Assembly: GCA_002179805.1 (NCBI GenBank)
Contig: NAVB01000824.1
Span: forward strand, 1 to 24,521
Direction: 5' to 3'
Length of the DNA: 24,521 nt
Source: Acanthamoeba lenticulata
Taxonomy: Eukaryota > Discosea > Longamoebia > Acanthamoebidae
This document shows positions 7,269-20,494 of the stretch, in pieces (position 1 is the first letter of the stretch; the number at the start of each line of letters is the position of its first letter). Below the pieces are notes generated by a model that ran no database searches, was not told the DNA's origin, and was given only the letters and a program-made list of their open reading frames with translations. Both the position numbers and the translations under genes were made by a program.

Positions 7269-7557
7269 CGAAAGAACGAAAGAGGAGCGGTTCTGCGTGT
7301 GTGAGCGAACGAGGTTTATGAAAAATGCCGCGAAGCTGCGCTTCAAACGAAACGTGAGCCAGAGAAACGCAAGAGAAAATCGCATATCCATTCTTGGCGT
7401 TTTCGAAGAATTGCTTCACAGAAGATTCCTTAGTGGGCGCCCATGAAGCTCGTTGGGGGTCCTCGTGGAGCGTTTTTCACGTCCCACCGAGCGAGCGTAC
7501 AAGAACATCCCCGATCGAGCGATCACCACGACCAACCCCCAACAACAACAAGAAGAA
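7269..7557. promoter_or_regulatory. Shared divergent promoter region, DNA-binding protein / eRF1
   Basis: 289 bases between divergent start codons. The eRF1 side ends in a CAACAACAACAAGAAGAA leader directly before its ATG, typical of an unstructured, well-translated leader. In-frame upstream Met codons exist for the minus-strand gene. Inferred from layout. Confidence 0.4.
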
Positions 7558-9299
7558 ATGGCCAACTTTGATATGGACAGCGTAGAGGCCTGGCGCCAAA
7601 AGAAGATTGTGGAGCAGTTGGAGAGCGCCAAGGGCAACGGCACCTCGTGCATCACCATCATCGTCCCGCCCAACTACCAAATGGTCAACCTGACCAAGCT
7701 GCTGACCCGCGAGCTGGGTTCGGCGTCGAGCATTAAGAGCCGCCTCACGCGTAACTCGGTCATCGACGCGCTCAAGTCCATCCAGCACCGCGTCAAGCTC
7801 ATCACGCGCCCGCCTACCAACGGCCTCGCCATCTTCTGCGGCACCGTCCTGCGCGACCGCCGCGAGAAGAAGGAGCTGACGGTGTGGGAGCCCATCCAGC
7901 CGCTTAAGCAGTTCTCCTACCTCTGCGACGGCCAGTTCCATGTAGAGCAGCTCAAGGACCAGCTCAACGAGCACGACAAGTACGGCTTCATCGTCCTCGA
8001 TGGCCACGGTACCTTGTTTGCCACCGTCCAGGGCAACCACGTCAACGTGCTCCAGCGCTACACGGTGGCCCTCCCCAAGAAGCACCGCCGAGGCGGTCAG
8101 TCAGCCGCCCGCTTCTCTCGGTTGCGTTTTTAACGCGAGGCATACCTACCTCGTACGTCTTCTTCTTGACTCCTTCTTTCCCATCTTTATCCATATCTCT
8201 GACGTTTGGTGTATGTCTTGTGCAGACGAAGGTGGCCGAAACAGCGGTCCACTGCTTCGTGGGTAGGGACGACCAGCCCACGGTCAAGGGCCTTGTCGTG
8301 GCCGGCTTGGCAGACCTCAAGGCCGAGCTGACGTCGAACCCGAAGCTGCTCGACAAGCGCCTGCTGTCTCGAGTGCTCAAGACCGTCGACACAGCCTACG
8401 GCATGGAGAAGGGCCTTCACCAGGCCATCGCCCTGTCCGCCGACGTACTTGGCGAGGTTCGACTGCTCAAGGAGCAGCGCCTGCTCGAGCGCTACTTTAC
8501 CGAGCTGGGCGCGGTCAGCGTCACCGACGCCGGCAGCCGAGCCGCCTGCGGGCTGCGCGAGACCGTGGCCGCCCTGCGCGAGGGCGTCGCCGACAGCATC
8601 ATCTGTTGGGAGCGCCTCGCCGTCGTGCGCTACACGCTCCAGCACGCCGCAACGGGTCGCACCGAAGTCGTCCACCACACCCCGCGGCCTGGCCGCCCGG
8701 AGCCCACGGTGGCCGAGCTTCTGGCCGACACAGCGGAGCAAGGCTGGGCGATCGTCGAGCAGGCGCCGCTGGTGGATTGGCTCGCGGAGCACTACCGCGA
8801 GTTTGGCGCCCAGCTGGCCTTTGTCTCAGGCAACTCGGAGCTGGGCCACCAGTTTGTGCAGAGCTTTGGCGGCCTCGGCGCCGTCCTGCGCTATCCGGTC
8901 GACTTTGAGGCGCTCGACATGCCCGCGGTCCGCGAGGACGAGGATGACGAGGACGACGACTTTGACGACTTTGATCTCGAGAGCTGCTGTGTCAGCGAGC
9001 CTGAGCCCAAGCCGCTGGGCCCCAACGAGGAGGTCCTCGAGTTTGCCGAGGAGGACTTTATAGATGACGACGATGACGACGACGACGACGGTCATGACGA
9101 AGCCGGCCGTTGCGACAACAAGGGAAACGACAAGGGCAAGGAGAGGGTCGGATTGCCGCCGCGTGCAGGGGGCAACAACGACAAGGCTGCTGCTTGCCCA
9201 GTCAAGCCGGCGCGCCAGCTGACAAGCAAGATCAGGCCCACCGACAGGGTGTTTGTGCCGAACGGCCGTAGCAGCTCGACTGCAGGCGCCGCCCAGTAA
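7558..9299 (+). CDS. eRF1: Eukaryotic peptide chain release factor 1 (eRF1), needs a +1 frameshift
   Basis: Recognises stop codons in the ribosomal A site and triggers peptidyl-tRNA hydrolysis with eRF3. Exon 1 is 7558-8152 and exon 2 is 8226-9299 (donor GTACGT, acceptor GTGCAG). Domain N has GNGTS at 26-30, SIKS at 58-61 where NIKS is usual, and YLCDGQF at 121-127 (the YxCxxxF motif). Domain M has PKKHRRGGQ with GGQ at 179-181. The rest matches eRF1 through VDFEALDM. After RFSRLRF (codon 191) the frame meets TAA at 8131-8133, but the following conserved residues NARHTYL, up to the donor, lie in +1. Skipping one T restores alignment to human RLRMEKRHNYVRKVAETAV without a gap, for about 555 residues in all. 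The extra C-terminus is about 115 residues: Asp-rich, then basic. An error in the T5 run, or a pseudogene, cannot be excluded, but the downstream exon is fully conserved and open. Confidence 0.9.
8128..8134 (+). promoter_or_regulatory. Candidate +1 ribosomal frameshift site in eRF1 (TTT TAA C)
   Basis: Zero-frame codons are TTT (8128-8130) and TAA (8131-8133), followed by C. A P-site tRNA-Phe on UUU can move one base forward and pair again perfectly with UUU (8129-8131), leaving AAC in the A site. A stop followed by C is a weak termination context in many eukaryotes. The arrangement mirrors the bacterial RF2 site CUU UGA C. The protein alignment shows that the frame changes here; that the ribosome does it is inference. 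Confidence 0.6.
8145..8267 (+). promoter_or_regulatory. Stem-loop in spliced eRF1 mRNA just after the frameshift site
   Basis: With the intron 8153-8225 removed, CCTACC (8145-8150) pairs with GGTAGG (8262-8267). After one bulged T (8151), CACGAAG (8152 plus 8226-8231) pairs with CTTCGTG (8255-8261). Inside the loop, GTGG (8232-8235) pairs with CCAC (8249-8252), and CCG (8236-8238) with CGG... via 8245-8247. Together that is about 20 base pairs, starting 11 bases after the TAA. It cannot form in unspliced RNA in this arrangement. Whether it stimulates shifting is inference. Confidence 0.5.
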
Positions 9300-9495
9300 G
9301 CGGCCATCGCCTCGGGGGCCTGAGCCAACTCCAGTAGTGGAAGACGGTCGTCGTGCAACATGTTCAACTTCCTCCCCGTCTTTGCACCACCACTTGGAGA
9401 ATTTTATCGTTAAAAATCAAATGCATTTCCACATCAACTTTTTACATTTTGTTTTTATTGTTTTTAATATTTTGTAAACTTTTTTTTTGTGGGCC
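9300..9495. terminator. Convergent 3' ends of eRF1 and the DUF547 gene
   Basis: 196 bases between two stop codons facing each other, AT-rich from about 9400. On the minus strand an AATAAA (9459-9454) lies about 37 bases after the DUF547 stop and is a good polyadenylation signal for that gene. No equally clear signal was seen for eRF1. Confidence 0.5.
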
Positions 9496-10621
9496 CTACC
9501 AGAAGGAAGTGGAACGAAGCAGGGAGTTCTCGAAGCTGTTGAGCTCCCACTTAAAGTTGAAGTAGTTCACTTGTAGGCGAGAGGCGTTGGCCGCGAGGTA
9601 GCGCTTGACCGCCGGGCTGGCCTGCATGTGGGCCGACACGTAGTTGACGACGCTCCCGTACTGGCGGGTGAAGTCTTCCTCCTCCCAGGAGAAGATGCGC
9701 GACAGCGTCAACGTGCCGGTGGTCATGTCCAGCTGAAGGCCCTTGCCGGTGTCGTTGAGGAAAAGCGCGGCCGACTGGTTCATCTGGGCCTCCAGGGTTA
9801 AGCCCGTGTAGGCCTCGCCGAGAAGCGACGGGCACGACACGCAGGCGCTGACCATGCACGACCACGCACGCGCGTCGTTGAAGCCCCGCACGACGTCGCG
9901 CACCTGGCGCAGGGTGTAGCTCCGCCCGCCGACCGTGCCCGCCTCGACATCCCAGTTGGACTGTGCACAATCAAGAAATTGTGACAAAAGGCGGGAGCGA
10001 GTGAGTGCGAGCTGCGCCATCACAGAGCTTGGGGCAGCACACTTACCTCGCCGAGACCGCCGAGCTCGCGGATGCTGCGCGCGGGCCAGCAAAAGCGACC
10101 AAACGTGACACGGCACGGGTTGTTGACCACCTGACGCACCACGAACGCGTTGTACACGTTCTGCTCGAGCGGGAAACGACAGGTAAGAAAGATGTAGAAG
10201 ACAAGAGAGAGGTTCAGTTCAGCCAGAAGCCGTACGAGCCAGAAGGCCAAGGTCTCCTCAGGAGACTGCGCCAGCGAGGAGGGGTCGAAGGCGGCCAGCT
10301 GGGCAAGATAGGCAGCAAAGTCGGGGTCGGCTCGCCGGCGGAGCGCTTGATAAGCCACCACAGTCTCCTCTATCCCATCAATCTTGGCTGGCGTACACAC
10401 CATGTCCCGTAAGAAATGTATTTCAAACAAAGAAAGCGATGAAAAAGCGAAAGAGAAGTACCAGAAGAGGCATAAGTTTGGAGGACGCGGGTCCACCGGG
10501 AATGGTCAAACGATGGAGAAGGCGAAGCCACTGCTGGCAAAGATGTGCCGTCAATTGCAGGAGCCGACAGTAAGGCGAGCAGACAAATCAACACCACACC
10601 AGCTGTTGTGCCGTGCTCCAT
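9496..10621 (-). CDS. Secreted DUF547-domain protein
   Basis: Four exons read leftwards: 10621-10462, 10387-10236, 10160-10047 and 9960-9496 (donors GTACTT, GTACGG, GTAAGT). Phases fit and give 296 residues. The N-terminus is a signal peptide with hydrophobic GVVLICLLALLSAPAI. The junction of exons 2 and 3 restores LAFWLNVYNAFVVRQVV, the hallmark tryptophan/Asn-x-Tyr-Asn-Ala block of DUF547. DUF547 is a papain-like-fold domain of uncertain activity, found in plant and bacterial proteins. Exon 4 holds a CMVSACVSCPSL segment, a GLTLEAQMNQSAALFLND segment typical of the family, and a short aromatic C-terminus ending at TAG. Biochemical role unknown; likely acts in the secretory path or outside the cell. 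Confidence 0.75.
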
Positions 10622-15346: not shown

Positions 15347-17071
15347 CTACACGCGGACGCCATGAGCGAGGCGCATGTAGGCGCGGAACTGCTTGGCAGC
15401 CAGTGGGTCGCGGTCAAAGAAGGGATAAGGCGCGCCGACGCGATGGGCCGCAGCCAGGCCCGAGATGACGGCGATCTCGTGGGTGTTGACCAGCGTGTAG
15501 CTCCCACAGAACCACGTCCGGCCGCGGCCGCCCTGCAGGAAGCGCATCCATGGGACCGTCAAGGCGTAGTGCCGCCACGTGTGGGCAAACTGGCGCCACC
15601 ACTTGCGCAACACCACGCGGGCCGGGTCGATGTCGTCGATCGTCCACGACGTCGCGCAGCGGTCGTCCAAGAAGATCGTCTGGAACACGTTGCCCGTCGT
15701 GCGGTCCCGCCCGGCCAGCTGCGGCTGATACTGGCGCAGGTTGAAGCTCATCTCTGTGGAAAAGCCACCTCCAAGCCGTCAGACGCGCGACACATGACAC
15801 GACACGCGCGCGTGTGTGCGGCACGACATGACACGACACGCACCAATTTTCTCGGGATCGCGATCGTCGGTGCGGGTGAGGTATTGGTCGCCATCGGGTC
15901 CGAGGTTGATGTCGTAGTGGCGCCGCATGTAGTCGAGGTCCGTGTGGGTGACGGTGACATCGTTGAAGAACTCGACGTTGCCCAGCACCAGGCGCTCGGC
16001 GCGCGTGGCCCCGGCGCCGAGCATGCGCAGGACCTGCTCGGCGTCGCACGCAAAGATGATGTCGTCGAACTCGGCCCGGTGGCCGTTAGCGTCGACCACG
16101 ACGACGCGGTCCTCCAGCCGTACGACCGACTCCACGGCGCAGTTCAGCCGAAACTTGACGGCTTGTCCCGTTTGTGTCGACAACGTAGCGGCCGACGAAG
16201 AAGATGAAGGCGAAGAAGAGGAGGACTCGAGGCGGCGCATGATCGTGGAGTAGAGGCTGTCCAGGGACGGGAAGGCATACATGAGGGGTTTCTGACTGAG
16301 GAGGGTCTTGGGGTCGTATTCAAAGAGGCGGAGGTCGTCGTCGAGAAAGACCCGCGCGACGATGGCGGCCGACACGTTGGGGGTCTGGTTGCCCGTGCCA
16401 AAGAAGACAGCGACGAGGGGGAAGACCATGCGGTCTCGAAAGGCGGCGCTGAAGCCCAGAACGCGCAGAACGAGCCTGATGGGCACGAACACGAACAACG
16501 GCTCCAGTCTGTAAATCCACTGCAGTACACGACCAAATCGATCGATTTCGGGCCTCAGCTTCTCCACGAGCGAGGAAGACGCGTAGTTGGTCCAGTGGTT
16601 ATCGCCCCTTCCAAAGGAGATGGTGATGTGGAACGGGCTGCCTTTAAATCCAAAGGCCTCCATCAAGAGGAGCGTGTTACGGTAGGTGGGCGCCGCCGCC
16701 TGCACGCCGTCGTTGATGAAGACATTGTCCTCACCACCGTCTTCATCCGACGAGGAAGATGGTGTCAGGGGCTTCTCTGAGGTAGCAACACCGCCAGGCC
16801 GGGGCAAGCGGTCCCAGGCCTCGATCTCGAAGCGTTCGGGGAAGCGGGCAAGGCTCCACACGGCCGCCATCCCGGCAGCGCCCGTGCCCACCACACATAC
16901 CCGTTTTCGTCGCCCTGCGGGCATGGGTGCGGGGGCGTCATCGCTGGGCTGGGGGAGGGGAGGTGAGTTAGCCTTAAATGCCGAAAATGTAATCCACTGC
17001 GCTTGTACCTTGAGCAGCCAGAGCACAAGAAAGATTAGGACCACAAAGCCTCCTATCGTGTAGAAAATCAT
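15347..17071 (-). CDS. Membrane-anchored FAD-dependent amine-oxidase-like protein
   Basis: Exons read leftwards: 17071-17009, 16948-15844, 15753-15347; 524 residues. The first 21 residues are a hydrophobic anchor (FVVLIFLVLWLL). A Rossmann FAD-binding motif VCVVGTGAAG follows (GTGAAG at 42-47), with EAWDRLPRPGGVAT acting as the acidic strand end and GG doublet typical of flavin amine oxidases and desaturase-like relatives. The C-terminus has WFCGSYTLVNTHEIAVISGLAAA, matching the second FAD contact of this family. The substrate cannot be told. The 60-base segment 16949-17008 is open in frame but has a GTACAA start, CTAAC and a pyrimidine-rich CCCCCAG end, so I treat it as an intron; if retained it adds 20 residues. 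The last intron carries a repeated CATGACACGACACG. Confidence 0.75.
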
Positions 17072-17652
17072 CACCTAGCTGAAGTTGCATAATGATTTCG
17101 GCGCAGTCATGAAAGACAAGCTCTAACGCCAGTCATCCTTCACACTGGCTAACGAACAAAGGCGTAATAATTTCCAGAAATTAGCAAAAGAAAAAGGACA
17201 CGTTTTCAAAGTTTCTGGTTCTGTCCTTGTCGGGACCGCCAGAGCTGAGGGCAAGCGGAGCCGTCTTGTTGCTGCTCCACACCGAGTTTGACGAACTGCA
17301 GATCGGTGACGCTCCGATTCCCGCTGCGTCGCTCGTGGGTTAGTAACAAAGCAGACGCTGCTCTCCGATCTTCTTCCGGCCAAGTTGCCGCTTGCCATCA
17401 AAGCGCTCATCATCGGAGCCACATCATTCTTCATTCCATTCATCTGCTACAACGATCCTCATCACTGCCTCTCCATCTGGCCTCTTTCCCACTGCGTAGT
17501 GGCTGACGGCTTGGTGGACAGCCATGTTAACATGGCAACACTTTTGCCTTTAGTATCTTTTGTGGAAAGCGTAGCGGAAAAGTCGGAGTGGAACTCCTTT
17601 TCTTCCTGTTGCTCTTCCGTTTGTCACGGGCGCCGAGGGAGTTGCACACAAC
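17072..17652. promoter_or_regulatory. Divergent promoter region, oxidase / ERF4-like
   Basis: 581 bases between divergent starts. Short open frames occur on both strands, but none has a recognisable domain. No TATA box or clear operator recognised. Confidence 0.35.
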
Positions 17653-18566: not shown

Positions 18567-20174
18567 TCATGGCTTGAGCGAGTCGAAGAAGCTGTTCCGT
18601 TTGGCGCGTTGCACAACGATCATGCAGTCGCGGAAGGCCGTGCCTGTGAACGCGGGAATGCTGTCGATGTCCAGCTCGGGCGCGGCCCCGTGCGCGCAGA
18701 GGACCTCGACGACCGCCAGGTTGCCTCGCCGAATGGCGCGCTCCAGCGGCAAGCGCCAGCCGCCTTCGGCTGCCGTCCGGGCGCCGTAGTCGAGCAGGAG
18801 CCGCACCATCGGCGCTCCTTGAGCGACGGCCTTGAGCAGCAGCGGCTTGCTGCGGTAGCGCGTTCGCGTGTTCGGGCTGGCGCCGGCGGAGAGAAGCACG
18901 CGAGCCCCTTCGAGGTCGTTCCGGCCTACGGCCTGGACGAGCCCGTGGTTGAGCGCCAGGTTGTAGAGCTCCAGGTCGACGTAGTGCAGCTCGAGCATGA
19001 GATCGAGCGTCTCAACGTCGGGGCCAAGCGCCAACTGAAAGGCCATCTCGATGCGCCGGGCCTCGAGGAGCGGCTCGGGCGCCCGGGCGAGCAGGAGCCG
19101 GACCACCTCTGGCGTGCCCTGGAGCACGCCCTTGTCAAAGAGCGCCTCGTCGATCTCGGCGCCATGGTCAAACAGCAGCCGAAGCACGGCGGCTTGGCCG
19201 CGTTCGACTGCCGCCATCGCAGCGCTGTGCATCCGCTCGAGCAGGTCGAGCGACACGTCGCCGTCATTATTCTGTCGCAAGCCGAGCCCTTGGCCAGGCC
19301 AGCCAAGCCCTTGCACCGGCCGCTGGCGCCCGAGCGTCGTGTAGCCCTTCCGCAAGTTGAATCCCTCAGACGAGGTGATGGGCGGCGGCGGGCAGGCCGC
19401 CAGGCGTCCGAGCTCAGCGAGGCTCTGCCGCACGGGCTCGGTGTAGCCGTTGAGGGCGGCCCAGGTGAGGCGCTTGGTCCACTTCTTCTGCTCGAGCGTC
19501 CACTTGCTCCTCTCGGCCTCGCGGTCACACTCCAAGTCTTGCTGGACCGCCCACATAAGCGCCCGCTGGAGCTGCTCGATGGGCGCCTTGCTTTCTCCCT
19601 CTTCTTCCTGTTCTACATCGACGTCCTCTGGGCCAACCACCCCTCCAGAAAAGGCGTCGAGCTCGCGTTCGGCGCTGCGCTCGTCCTTTTCCCCTCCATT
19701 GCTGTTGGCCGGGGGCGTGGCCACGTCGACGCCCAGCAAGCGGCGGTGGAGGTGCTGCCACAGGCTCGGGTCGCGCGCCAGCGTGCGCCAGCCGCGGCAG
19801 ACCAGCGGCACCTGGCGCACGAGGCTCTCGACTGGGACCCATCGCAGCACCTCCATCTGTAACTCCAAGGGCAGGTCCGTGACGTCTGCTGTGCTGGAGC
19901 TGGACGTGCTGCCTCGTCTTCGCTTCTGTTTCTTAAGAGGCGCTTGCTGCTCATCTTTGTCTCCTGTGCACGTATCGTCGACGTCGTGCCTCTTTTGCTT
20001 CAGTATGGAAGAAGCCGGCGTGCATGAAGGTAAGGGGATGGTGGCGGCTGCGTCGGTCCCTAGTACGCGAACCAAAAGTGTGGGTGCAATGTTGCTGCTA
20101 ACGACGACTTGCGCCTGAGTCTGTACCGAGAGCTGAACGCGCCATCCGCCCACCTCGACCTCTCGTTCATCCAT
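18567..20174 (-). CDS. F-box and ankyrin-repeat protein, single exon
   Basis: Intronless, 535 residues from the ATG at 20174; the open frame extends upstream but has no ATG. A basic stretch KKQKRRRGS (about 81-89) precedes an F-box at about 100-147 (DLPLELQMEVLRWVPVESLV, VPLVCRGWRTLARDPSLW), which would bind Skp1 and make this a substrate receptor of an SCF ubiquitin ligase. An acidic linker follows, then ankyrin-like repeats in the second half: AAVLRLLFDHGAEID, GTPEVVRLLLARAPEP, DLEGARVLLSAGASPNTR, GAPMVRLLLDYGAR and NLAVVEVLCAHGAAPE. Lack of introns in an intron-rich neighbourhood suggests retroposition or lineage expansion, common for F-box/ankyrin families. Target unknown. Confidence 0.8.
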   Translation of the reverse strand: MDEREVEVGGWRVQLSVQTQAQVVVSSNIAPTLLVRVLGTDAAATIPLPSCTPASSILKQKRHDVDDTCTGDKDEQQAPLKKQKRRRGSTSSSSTADVTDLPLELQMEVLRWVPVESLVRQVPLVCRGWRTLARDPSLWQHLHRRLLGVDVATPPANSNGGEKDERSAERELDAFSGGVVGPEDVDVEQEEEGESKAPIEQLQRALMWAVQQDLECDREAERSKWTLEQKKWTKRLTWAALNGYTEPVRQSLAELGRLAACPPPPITSSEGFNLRKGYTTLGRQRPVQGLGWPGQGLGLRQNNDGDVSLDLLERMHSAAMAAVERGQAAVLRLLFDHGAEIDEALFDKGVLQGTPEVVRLLLARAPEPLLEARRIEMAFQLALGPDVETLDLMLELHYVDLELYNLALNHGLVQAVGRNDLEGARVLLSAGASPNTRTRYRSKPLLLKAVAQGAPMVRLLLDYGARTAAEGGWRLPLERAIRRGNLAVVEVLCAHGAAPELDIDSIPAFTGTAFRDCMIVVQRAKRNSFFDSLKP

Positions 20175-20494
20175 GGCTTGAGTGTATGGCTGAGCTGCCG
20201 GCCTTGCTTCAGGCTGAAGCACAGAAAAAACGACACTTTTTCTTTTTCTTTTTTTTCTGTCTGATTTTGGCACTGCGATAAATATAATTTTCAATTTTTA
20301 AAAAGTTAATTGATTTTTATCGAAATACGAAGAGAGCTGTGTTTTGCGAGAGAGATAGAGAGAAAAAGAGAGAAGAGACACACAATTATAAGAAGAAAAA
20401 AAAACGCGGGTTCTTCTCCCTCCCGTCCCCCAACCAAACCACTTGGTCGCAGGCCGTGTGCGGACGGCAACGTTGTTGGCTTCATGGAGGCCTT
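20175..20494. other. Spacer between the Rab gene end and the F-box gene start
   Basis: 320 bases; both flanking genes are read leftwards, so it holds the Rab 3' end and the F-box promoter. It contains A/T-rich tracts near 20220-20320 and a purine-rich GAGA-like stretch on the plus strand at about 20340-20405. No gene seen. Confidence 0.4.

Follow-up and report, generated by a model that had tools for sequence, protein, structure and literature searches.

A divergent second eRF1 gene of Acanthamoeba lenticulata, very probably completed by a conserved +1 frameshift at its own stop codon

In plants, the efficiency of termination feeds back on the eRF1 gene by stop codon readthrough, not by frameshifting, and in the antizyme (OAZ) genes the signal for frameshifting is polyamine. 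The antizyme shift is a +1 event at a weak stop, with UCC as the slip codon and a pseudoknot as 3' RNA structure, and it serves feedback (PMC9841425). In bacteria, prfB, which encodes RF2, carries within its own coding sequence the site CUU UGA C, where release competes with a +1 slip helped by a Shine-Dalgarno-like stimulator; what the shift yields is the cell's own RF2, a member of a protein family unrelated to eRF1 (PMC3521657, PMC13245932). The closest precedent for the gene described here is found in the eRF1 genes of giant viruses, with CUU UAG C in Mimivirus and CUU UAA C in Megavirus (PMC3521657). R726 of Mimivirus and mg280 of Megavirus are eRF1-type genes interrupted by a +1 frameshift stop, for which autoregulation was proposed, and they have an extra upstream UGA stop that is read through; +1 shifting was demonstrated at the Mimivirus site in Escherichia coli (PMC3521657). 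Interrupted eRF1 genes were later extended to other mimiviruses (PMC6582330). Among cellular organisms, Acanthamoeba castellanii is described as expressing a deep-branching second eRF1, in which the authors report no internal stop codons (PMC3521657).

The window analysed here is the whole stretch of 24,521 nucleotides of the A. lenticulata contig NAVB01000824.1 (assembly GCA_002179805.1). It contains an eRF1-type gene with the following features, all on the forward (+) strand.

7558..8130, +: exon 1 in the zero frame, from the ATG at 7558, 191 codons encoding the eRF1 N domain and the start of the M domain
7729..7740, +: SIKS, where canonical eRF1 has NIKS, placed by alignment to the canonical copy (relatives have CIKS or SIKS)
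7918..7938, +: YLCDGQF, the YxCxxxF stop-recognition motif
8092..8100, +: GGQ, the peptide-release motif
8125..8134, +: shift site CGU UUU UAA C, with the stop at 8131-8133 and a run of five T at 8127-8131, identical on the second copy of the region (C73)
8132..8152, +: NARHTYL, read in the +1 frame as far as the splice donor, in gap-free alignment with canonical eRF1
8145..8267, +: predicted hairpin of the spliced mRNA (8145-8152 plus 8226-8238, paired with 8245-8267), a candidate stimulator found by folding
8153..8225, +: 73-nt intron, GTACGT...TGTGCAG, predicted from the sequence
8226..9299, +: exon 2 in the +1 frame, encoding the rest of the M domain, the C domain and an acidic tail, with a TAA stop
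9225..9260, +: SKIRPTDRVFVP, a degenerate stretch in the tail that resembles PAM2, the PABP-binding motif, identified from the sequence

The zero frame reads GGQSAARFSRLRF-UAA: CGT TTT at 8125-8130 is followed by TAA at 8131-8133 and then by C. Coding for eRF1 resumes only one base later, in the frame that is +1 to the upstream one at the stop, and continues to 9299. No other stop occurs in 7558-8130, so the additional upstream readthrough stop of the Mimiviridae type is absent; these viral genes were compared by description, and the Megavirus site is nearly the same as UUU UAA C. Exon 1 matched eRF1 chains of the PDB over residues 8-190 (E = 1.2e-58) and Pfam eRF1_1 and eRF1_2 above cut-offs. 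Exon 2, which opens with TKVAETAV and ends in TAA at 9299, matched eRF1 chains over residues 2-233 (E = 4.7e-47) and eRF1_2 and eRF1_3 above cut-offs, so that Pfam found domains 1, 2 and 3 across the two exons. GGQ is present, as is YxCxxxF, which has a role in stop recognition (PMC3521657), and the NIKS position is occupied by SIKS. Since SIKS replaces NIKS while the other two motifs are kept, the stop preference of this protein may differ from that of canonical eRF1.

When one T of the run is omitted and the intron removed, the gene yields a product of 555 aa, which aligns with the canonical eRF1 of the same genome at 43% identity over 421 columns, gap-free at the shift site (SAARFSRLRFNARHTYLTKVAE in the shifted product versus SALRFARLRLEKRHNYLRKVAE in canonical eRF1). 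A gap-free alignment through the site was obtained only in +1. The earlier note on this DNA had read CGT TTT TAA C after GGQ, with NARHTYL and TKVAETAV one base later, and had claimed an alignment to eRF1 free of gaps up to the GTACGT donor once one T is skipped; the reading was right in each point checked, and the canonical eRF1 of the genome confirms the alignment. A rare-codon choice at the slip site was rejected, because UUU is the commonest Phe codon of the gene (14 of 20). Elsewhere in the window, two ORFs on the minus strand (15779-17074 and 18567-20294) resemble a flavin amine oxidase and an F-box/ankyrin protein, an impression from the letters only.

We searched the genome (48.5 Mb, the window being contig C635) with the two halves of the gene and found three good loci: the window itself, C73 and C295. 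The exon 2 query also gave a weak match on C152 (E = 0.0015). Two profilin loci of this genome had the Acanthamoeba profilins II and IA as their best PDB matches. C295 encodes an eRF1 that is complete and free of introns (443 aa; L006, 223-1554); NIKS, YxCxxxF and GGQ are all present. The gene in the window is thus a divergent eRF1 paralogue beside an intact canonical eRF1 and is not the sole supply of the factor, so the simple self-feedback of a single eRF1 that the earlier note had envisaged is not the model; the presence of the intact gene also weighs against any firm claim that the shifted product matters. This also separates it from prfB, since the shifted product here is a second factor.

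C73 aligns with the window region at 94.6% over 8,432 columns and is most simply its other haplotype. Between the start codon and the splice donor (7558-8152), the C73 copy (L003) shows no difference from the window in 595 bp, shift site included. Exon 2 has 9 substitutions (6 synonymous and 3 nonsynonymous) and gaps of 9, 3 and 6, while the intron has one mismatch and one gap of 6. The flanks show 10 mismatches at 7400-7557 and 19 at 9300-9500, with 11 gaps over both (1, 1, 1, 1, 2, 2, 2, 3, 7, 7 and 7). The identity of exon 1 and the frame-keeping gaps of exon 2, next to flanks gapped otherwise, therefore indicate that both parts are kept as coding, and from these sequences the paralogue does not look like a decaying copy. 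The identity of 595 bp between copies whose flanks clearly differ points to either constraint or gene conversion.

Single-base differences in homopolymers are a common type of error, and an intact eRF1 does exist elsewhere in the genome, as would be expected if the interruption were an assembly error or belonged to a decaying copy. However, the shift site is found on both the window and C73, and an assembly slip would therefore need to have hit both copies. Together with the frame-keeping gaps and the same end point in eight proteins from other data (below), this makes error or decay extremely improbable. The earlier note had listed normal eRF1 from another locus among what would overturn its reading: such a locus exists on C295, but judged by the comparison with C73 this copy does not have the appearance of decay.

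The same note had proposed looking for the site in relatives. In addition to the identical site on C73, relatives share its end point at the protein level. Exon 1 alone was searched against 5.8 billion proteins with length limits of 0.55 to 1.75 times its 191 aa, limits that favour cut proteins, and gave 26 matches from 106 candidates. Eight of the 26, all metagenomic relatives (P0121, P0122, P0123, P0124, P0125, P0127, P0128 and P0132), stop exactly after ...RLRF, the same residue as in the window; their identity to the window is 50 to 82%, and the lowest value between any two of them is 46%. They do not amount to eight independent events, P0123 being close to P0125; they represent about three sublineages beside the window's own. 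A ninth member of the clade, P0126, ends in GGQSGKF on a contig of 943 bp, too short for its end point to be judged. An intron beginning with GT directly behind the Phe codon would append Val or alter the last residue, and the eight ORFs must therefore meet a stop there. P0132, the most diverged of the N-terminal halves ending in RLRF, lies on a contig of 195,460 bp and was not found in two scans of viral contigs.

This end point is peculiar to these proteins among those fetched. GGQ is present in 173 of the 192 and absent from 19. Counting from it, eight proteins stop at the 13th residue, all with Phe, one is shorter, and 164 continue past that position, where they carry M, L, E, D, T, V, I, R or Q and in no case Phe (0/164). 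Judged from these sequences, the sharing of the RLRF end by 8 of the 26 exon 1 matches appears to be beyond chance. A search with the full-length product, in which only the 8,000 candidates sharing most words were scored, gave no uninterrupted clade member among the best 120 of its 223 matches. Among those 120, the matches belonging to the clade were C-terminal parts (P0001, P0004 and P0006, 56 to 59% identity), other rows having 39 to 48%.

A profile of the C-terminal half retrieved a further relative, P0183, which starts with VVSRALDSRGCVFEARHNYRRKVAE. Its ORF crosses the shift site without an intron and, one base back, can be read as GGQS??RF?RLRF-stop. The stop, if there, is UGA, and Arg is also allowed by the peptide alone. 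Only 4 of 300,000 random 14-mers from the fetched proteins fit this pattern, and a shift in the other direction fails to match it. The C-terminal part of this distant, intronless relative thus apparently overlaps the same site in the +1 frame. The arrangement is then common to relatives at the protein level, with eight N-terminal halves ending at RLRF and P0183 fitting +1, and the +1 shift at UUU UAA C that the earlier note proposed is well supported by both. A 19-nt GT-AG intron (8121-8139) would restore the frame of the window gene, but it was rejected because it removes LRFNAR, which eRF1 keeps; the equivalent intron in P0183 would be of 14 nt and gives no +1, which also counts against it.

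In trees of the two halves, the clade of the N-terminal half (11 rows) had supports of 98/65 (bootstrap/SH-aLRT), with a bootstrap that had not settled, and that of the C-terminal half (10 rows) 100/99. P0183 forms a long branch outside the other paralogue rows, its placement being unsure, and a single clade including it was not rejected (p-AU = 0.446). Among the rows of the C-terminal half, the shift site is visible only in the window and P0183, and the others are called shifted by kinship, which is an assumption. P0146, P0152, P0173 and P0175 read through the site in frame and, with P0187, form the sister group in the C-half tree (joint support 99/87); because of this position, the interruption was probably gained within the wider paralogue family.

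A longer intron would remove the problem in another way: the stretch from GGQ to KVAE would be spliced out, giving a protein without GGQ that meets no stop. The Balamuthia mandrillaris protein P0158, which groups with the paralogue rows, speaks for it, as its NCBI model passes from KKHKAG straight to EQALHHFLD and omits the stretch from GGQ to KVA; so do the report that the A. castellanii paralogue is free of internal stops (PMC3521657) and the window itself, where joining a G|GT donor at GGQ to the AG at 8240-8241 would likewise leave the frame intact. Yet eRF1 protein sequence is preserved throughout this stretch, split over two frames in the window and reaching to the stop in the eight relatives, which an intron would not require, and the acceptor positions differ by two codons between the window gene and the Balamuthia gene. 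We consider this intron very unlikely. The gap in P0158 probably reflects an intron wrongly predicted across the shift site, as a gene finder avoiding a stop would place it. The A. castellanii paralogue, compared by description, is probably the orthologue of the window gene, and the conflict with its reported lack of stops (PMC3521657) would arise either because gene prediction passed over the stop, as for Balamuthia, or because the strains differ.

The frame might instead be restored in the RNA, by transcriptional slippage or by editing, and the run of five T at the site is what such slippage would use. We infer, however, that this run is short for the purpose, and the mRNA of the Mimivirus eRF1, though that of another gene, was found to be equal to its gene (PMC3521657). 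Restoration at the RNA level seems even less probable than the long intron. A shift by the ribosome is hence the reading we retain: a conserved, programmed +1 frameshift in a second eRF1 is very probably present, as the comparison of protein sequences suggests.

We predicted the structure of the spliced mRNA after the stop. A hairpin begins 11 nt past the stop, and its 5' arm spans the exon junction. It has 20 pairs, 19 with a probability of 0.94 to 1.0 and one of 0.78 (287 nt folded). The 112-nt stretch folds at -52.4 kcal/mol, compared with -38.5 in shuffles (z = -3.96). With synonymous shuffles of 16, 20, 24, 28 and 33 codons from AAC, z was -1.83, -3.09, -3.94, -3.33 and -2.27, and 21, 1, 0, 1 and 4 of 500 shuffles, respectively, were as low. 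Along the gene (133 windows, 60 shuffles per window), the lowest three started at codons 189, 193 and 197 (z = -4.27, -4.21 and -2.23), the next being at -1.83. We did not accept the hairpin as proof of stimulation, since the canonical eRF1, a stop-free control, has its strongest structure in the corresponding stretch as well: the lowest 5 of its 105 windows start at codons 197-213 (z = -2.58 to -3.45; -2.5 to -3.06 with 500 shuffles), with a hairpin different from that of the window gene. Folding leaves the hairpin as a possible stimulator. The canonical Acanthamoeba eRF1 mRNA is likewise most structured just past the GGQ-RLR region.

The tail of the paralogue has a trait of its own. PAM2 is the motif through which eRF3 binds PABP (PMC2854688). 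The PAM2-like stretch of the window lacks the alanine, and Pfam gave no PAM2 match. A strict pattern was found in 2 of the 192 proteins (LDPRAEPFVP in P0180 and FNIDAPVFLP in P0151) and a loose one in 10 of 192, 8 of these 10 in the paralogue clade; the Balamuthia tail has no PAM2-like motif. A PAM2-like motif thus occurs at the C-terminal end of an eRF1 paralogue clade, where eRF3 would be the expected carrier.

Scans of viral contigs and of genome contigs gave no viral kin of the gene, but the Mimivirus eRF1 was likewise not retrieved, which makes these negatives weak. A search for antizyme as a second +1 gene in this genome gave no match and is uninformative, as control genomes gave none either. 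Searches of the open-access literature yielded no frameshifted eRF1 of a cellular eukaryote. The earlier note's statement that it knew of no described eukaryotic eRF1 of this kind holds for cellular genomes in those searches, but not against the giant-virus precedent (PMC3521657).

We propose that this gene is an old second eRF1 completed by programmed +1 ribosomal frameshifting at CGU UUU UAA C. Ribosomes that have read ...RLR-Phe(UUU) would meet the UAA-C stop, which is expected to be weak; UAA-C is among the most efficient inducers of frameshifting in yeast (PMC3521657). Many would terminate there and release a piece of 191 aa with an incomplete M domain and no C domain. In some, tRNA-Phe would move on by one base to the overlapping UUU, and translation would continue with AAC GCG AGG, giving the factor of 555 aa with GGQ and the eRF1 C domain. 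On a UUU codon in front of any stop, the tRNA can re-pair perfectly after a slip of one base. The slip would compete with termination by eRF1, so output should follow termination shortage, rising when eRF1 activity is short and falling when it is ample, as in RF2. The main quantity sensed would be canonical eRF1, and the paralogue would be the product. As in antizyme, a different gene, a +1 shift at a weak stop followed by 3' structure would be put to use in feedback. A junction-spanning Lys-C peptide, HRRGGQSAARFSRLRFNARHTYLTK, is predicted from the shifted product.

The slippage itself, its frequency, the part played by the hairpin and the feedback are what we infer. By analogy with RF2, sensing of termination capacity by the paralogue is plausible. 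A real +1 shift could also run at a fixed rate with no sensing, the stop being merely tolerated, as argued for Euplotes, where many frameshift sites have no regulatory function (PMC10235951). Against this, the site lies in a release-factor gene, like those of RF2 and the Mimivirus eRF1, and relatives as little as 50% identical still end at the same point, which nearby in-frame relatives lack. We regard a fixed rate as unlikely, although it deserves more weight than the alternatives above, and the whole model, frameshift plus termination feedback, as the reasonably probable one.

Control of a release factor by frameshifting was already known from bacteria and giant viruses. If true, a conserved case in cellular eukaryotes would apply the same logic to an unrelated protein family and could serve as a naturally occurring reporter for termination capacity in eukaryotes. 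The case is also relevant to a puzzle raised in PMC3521657, namely that viruses infecting this host genus use a "bacterial-like" mechanism; the same paper reports that the transcripts of the two host eRF1 genes fall during giant-virus infection. The widest reading, to which we give slightly less than even credence, is that SIKS/CIKS proteins form an eRF1 subfamily of several protist lineages, several with PAM2-like tails, under a conserved RF2-like control: complete only after a +1 shift at its own stop, such a protein would be a second release factor supplied on demand when canonical eRF1 falls, for example in giant-virus infection. Such genes may be hidden by ordinary gene models, as in Balamuthia, whose model omits the GGQ stretch.
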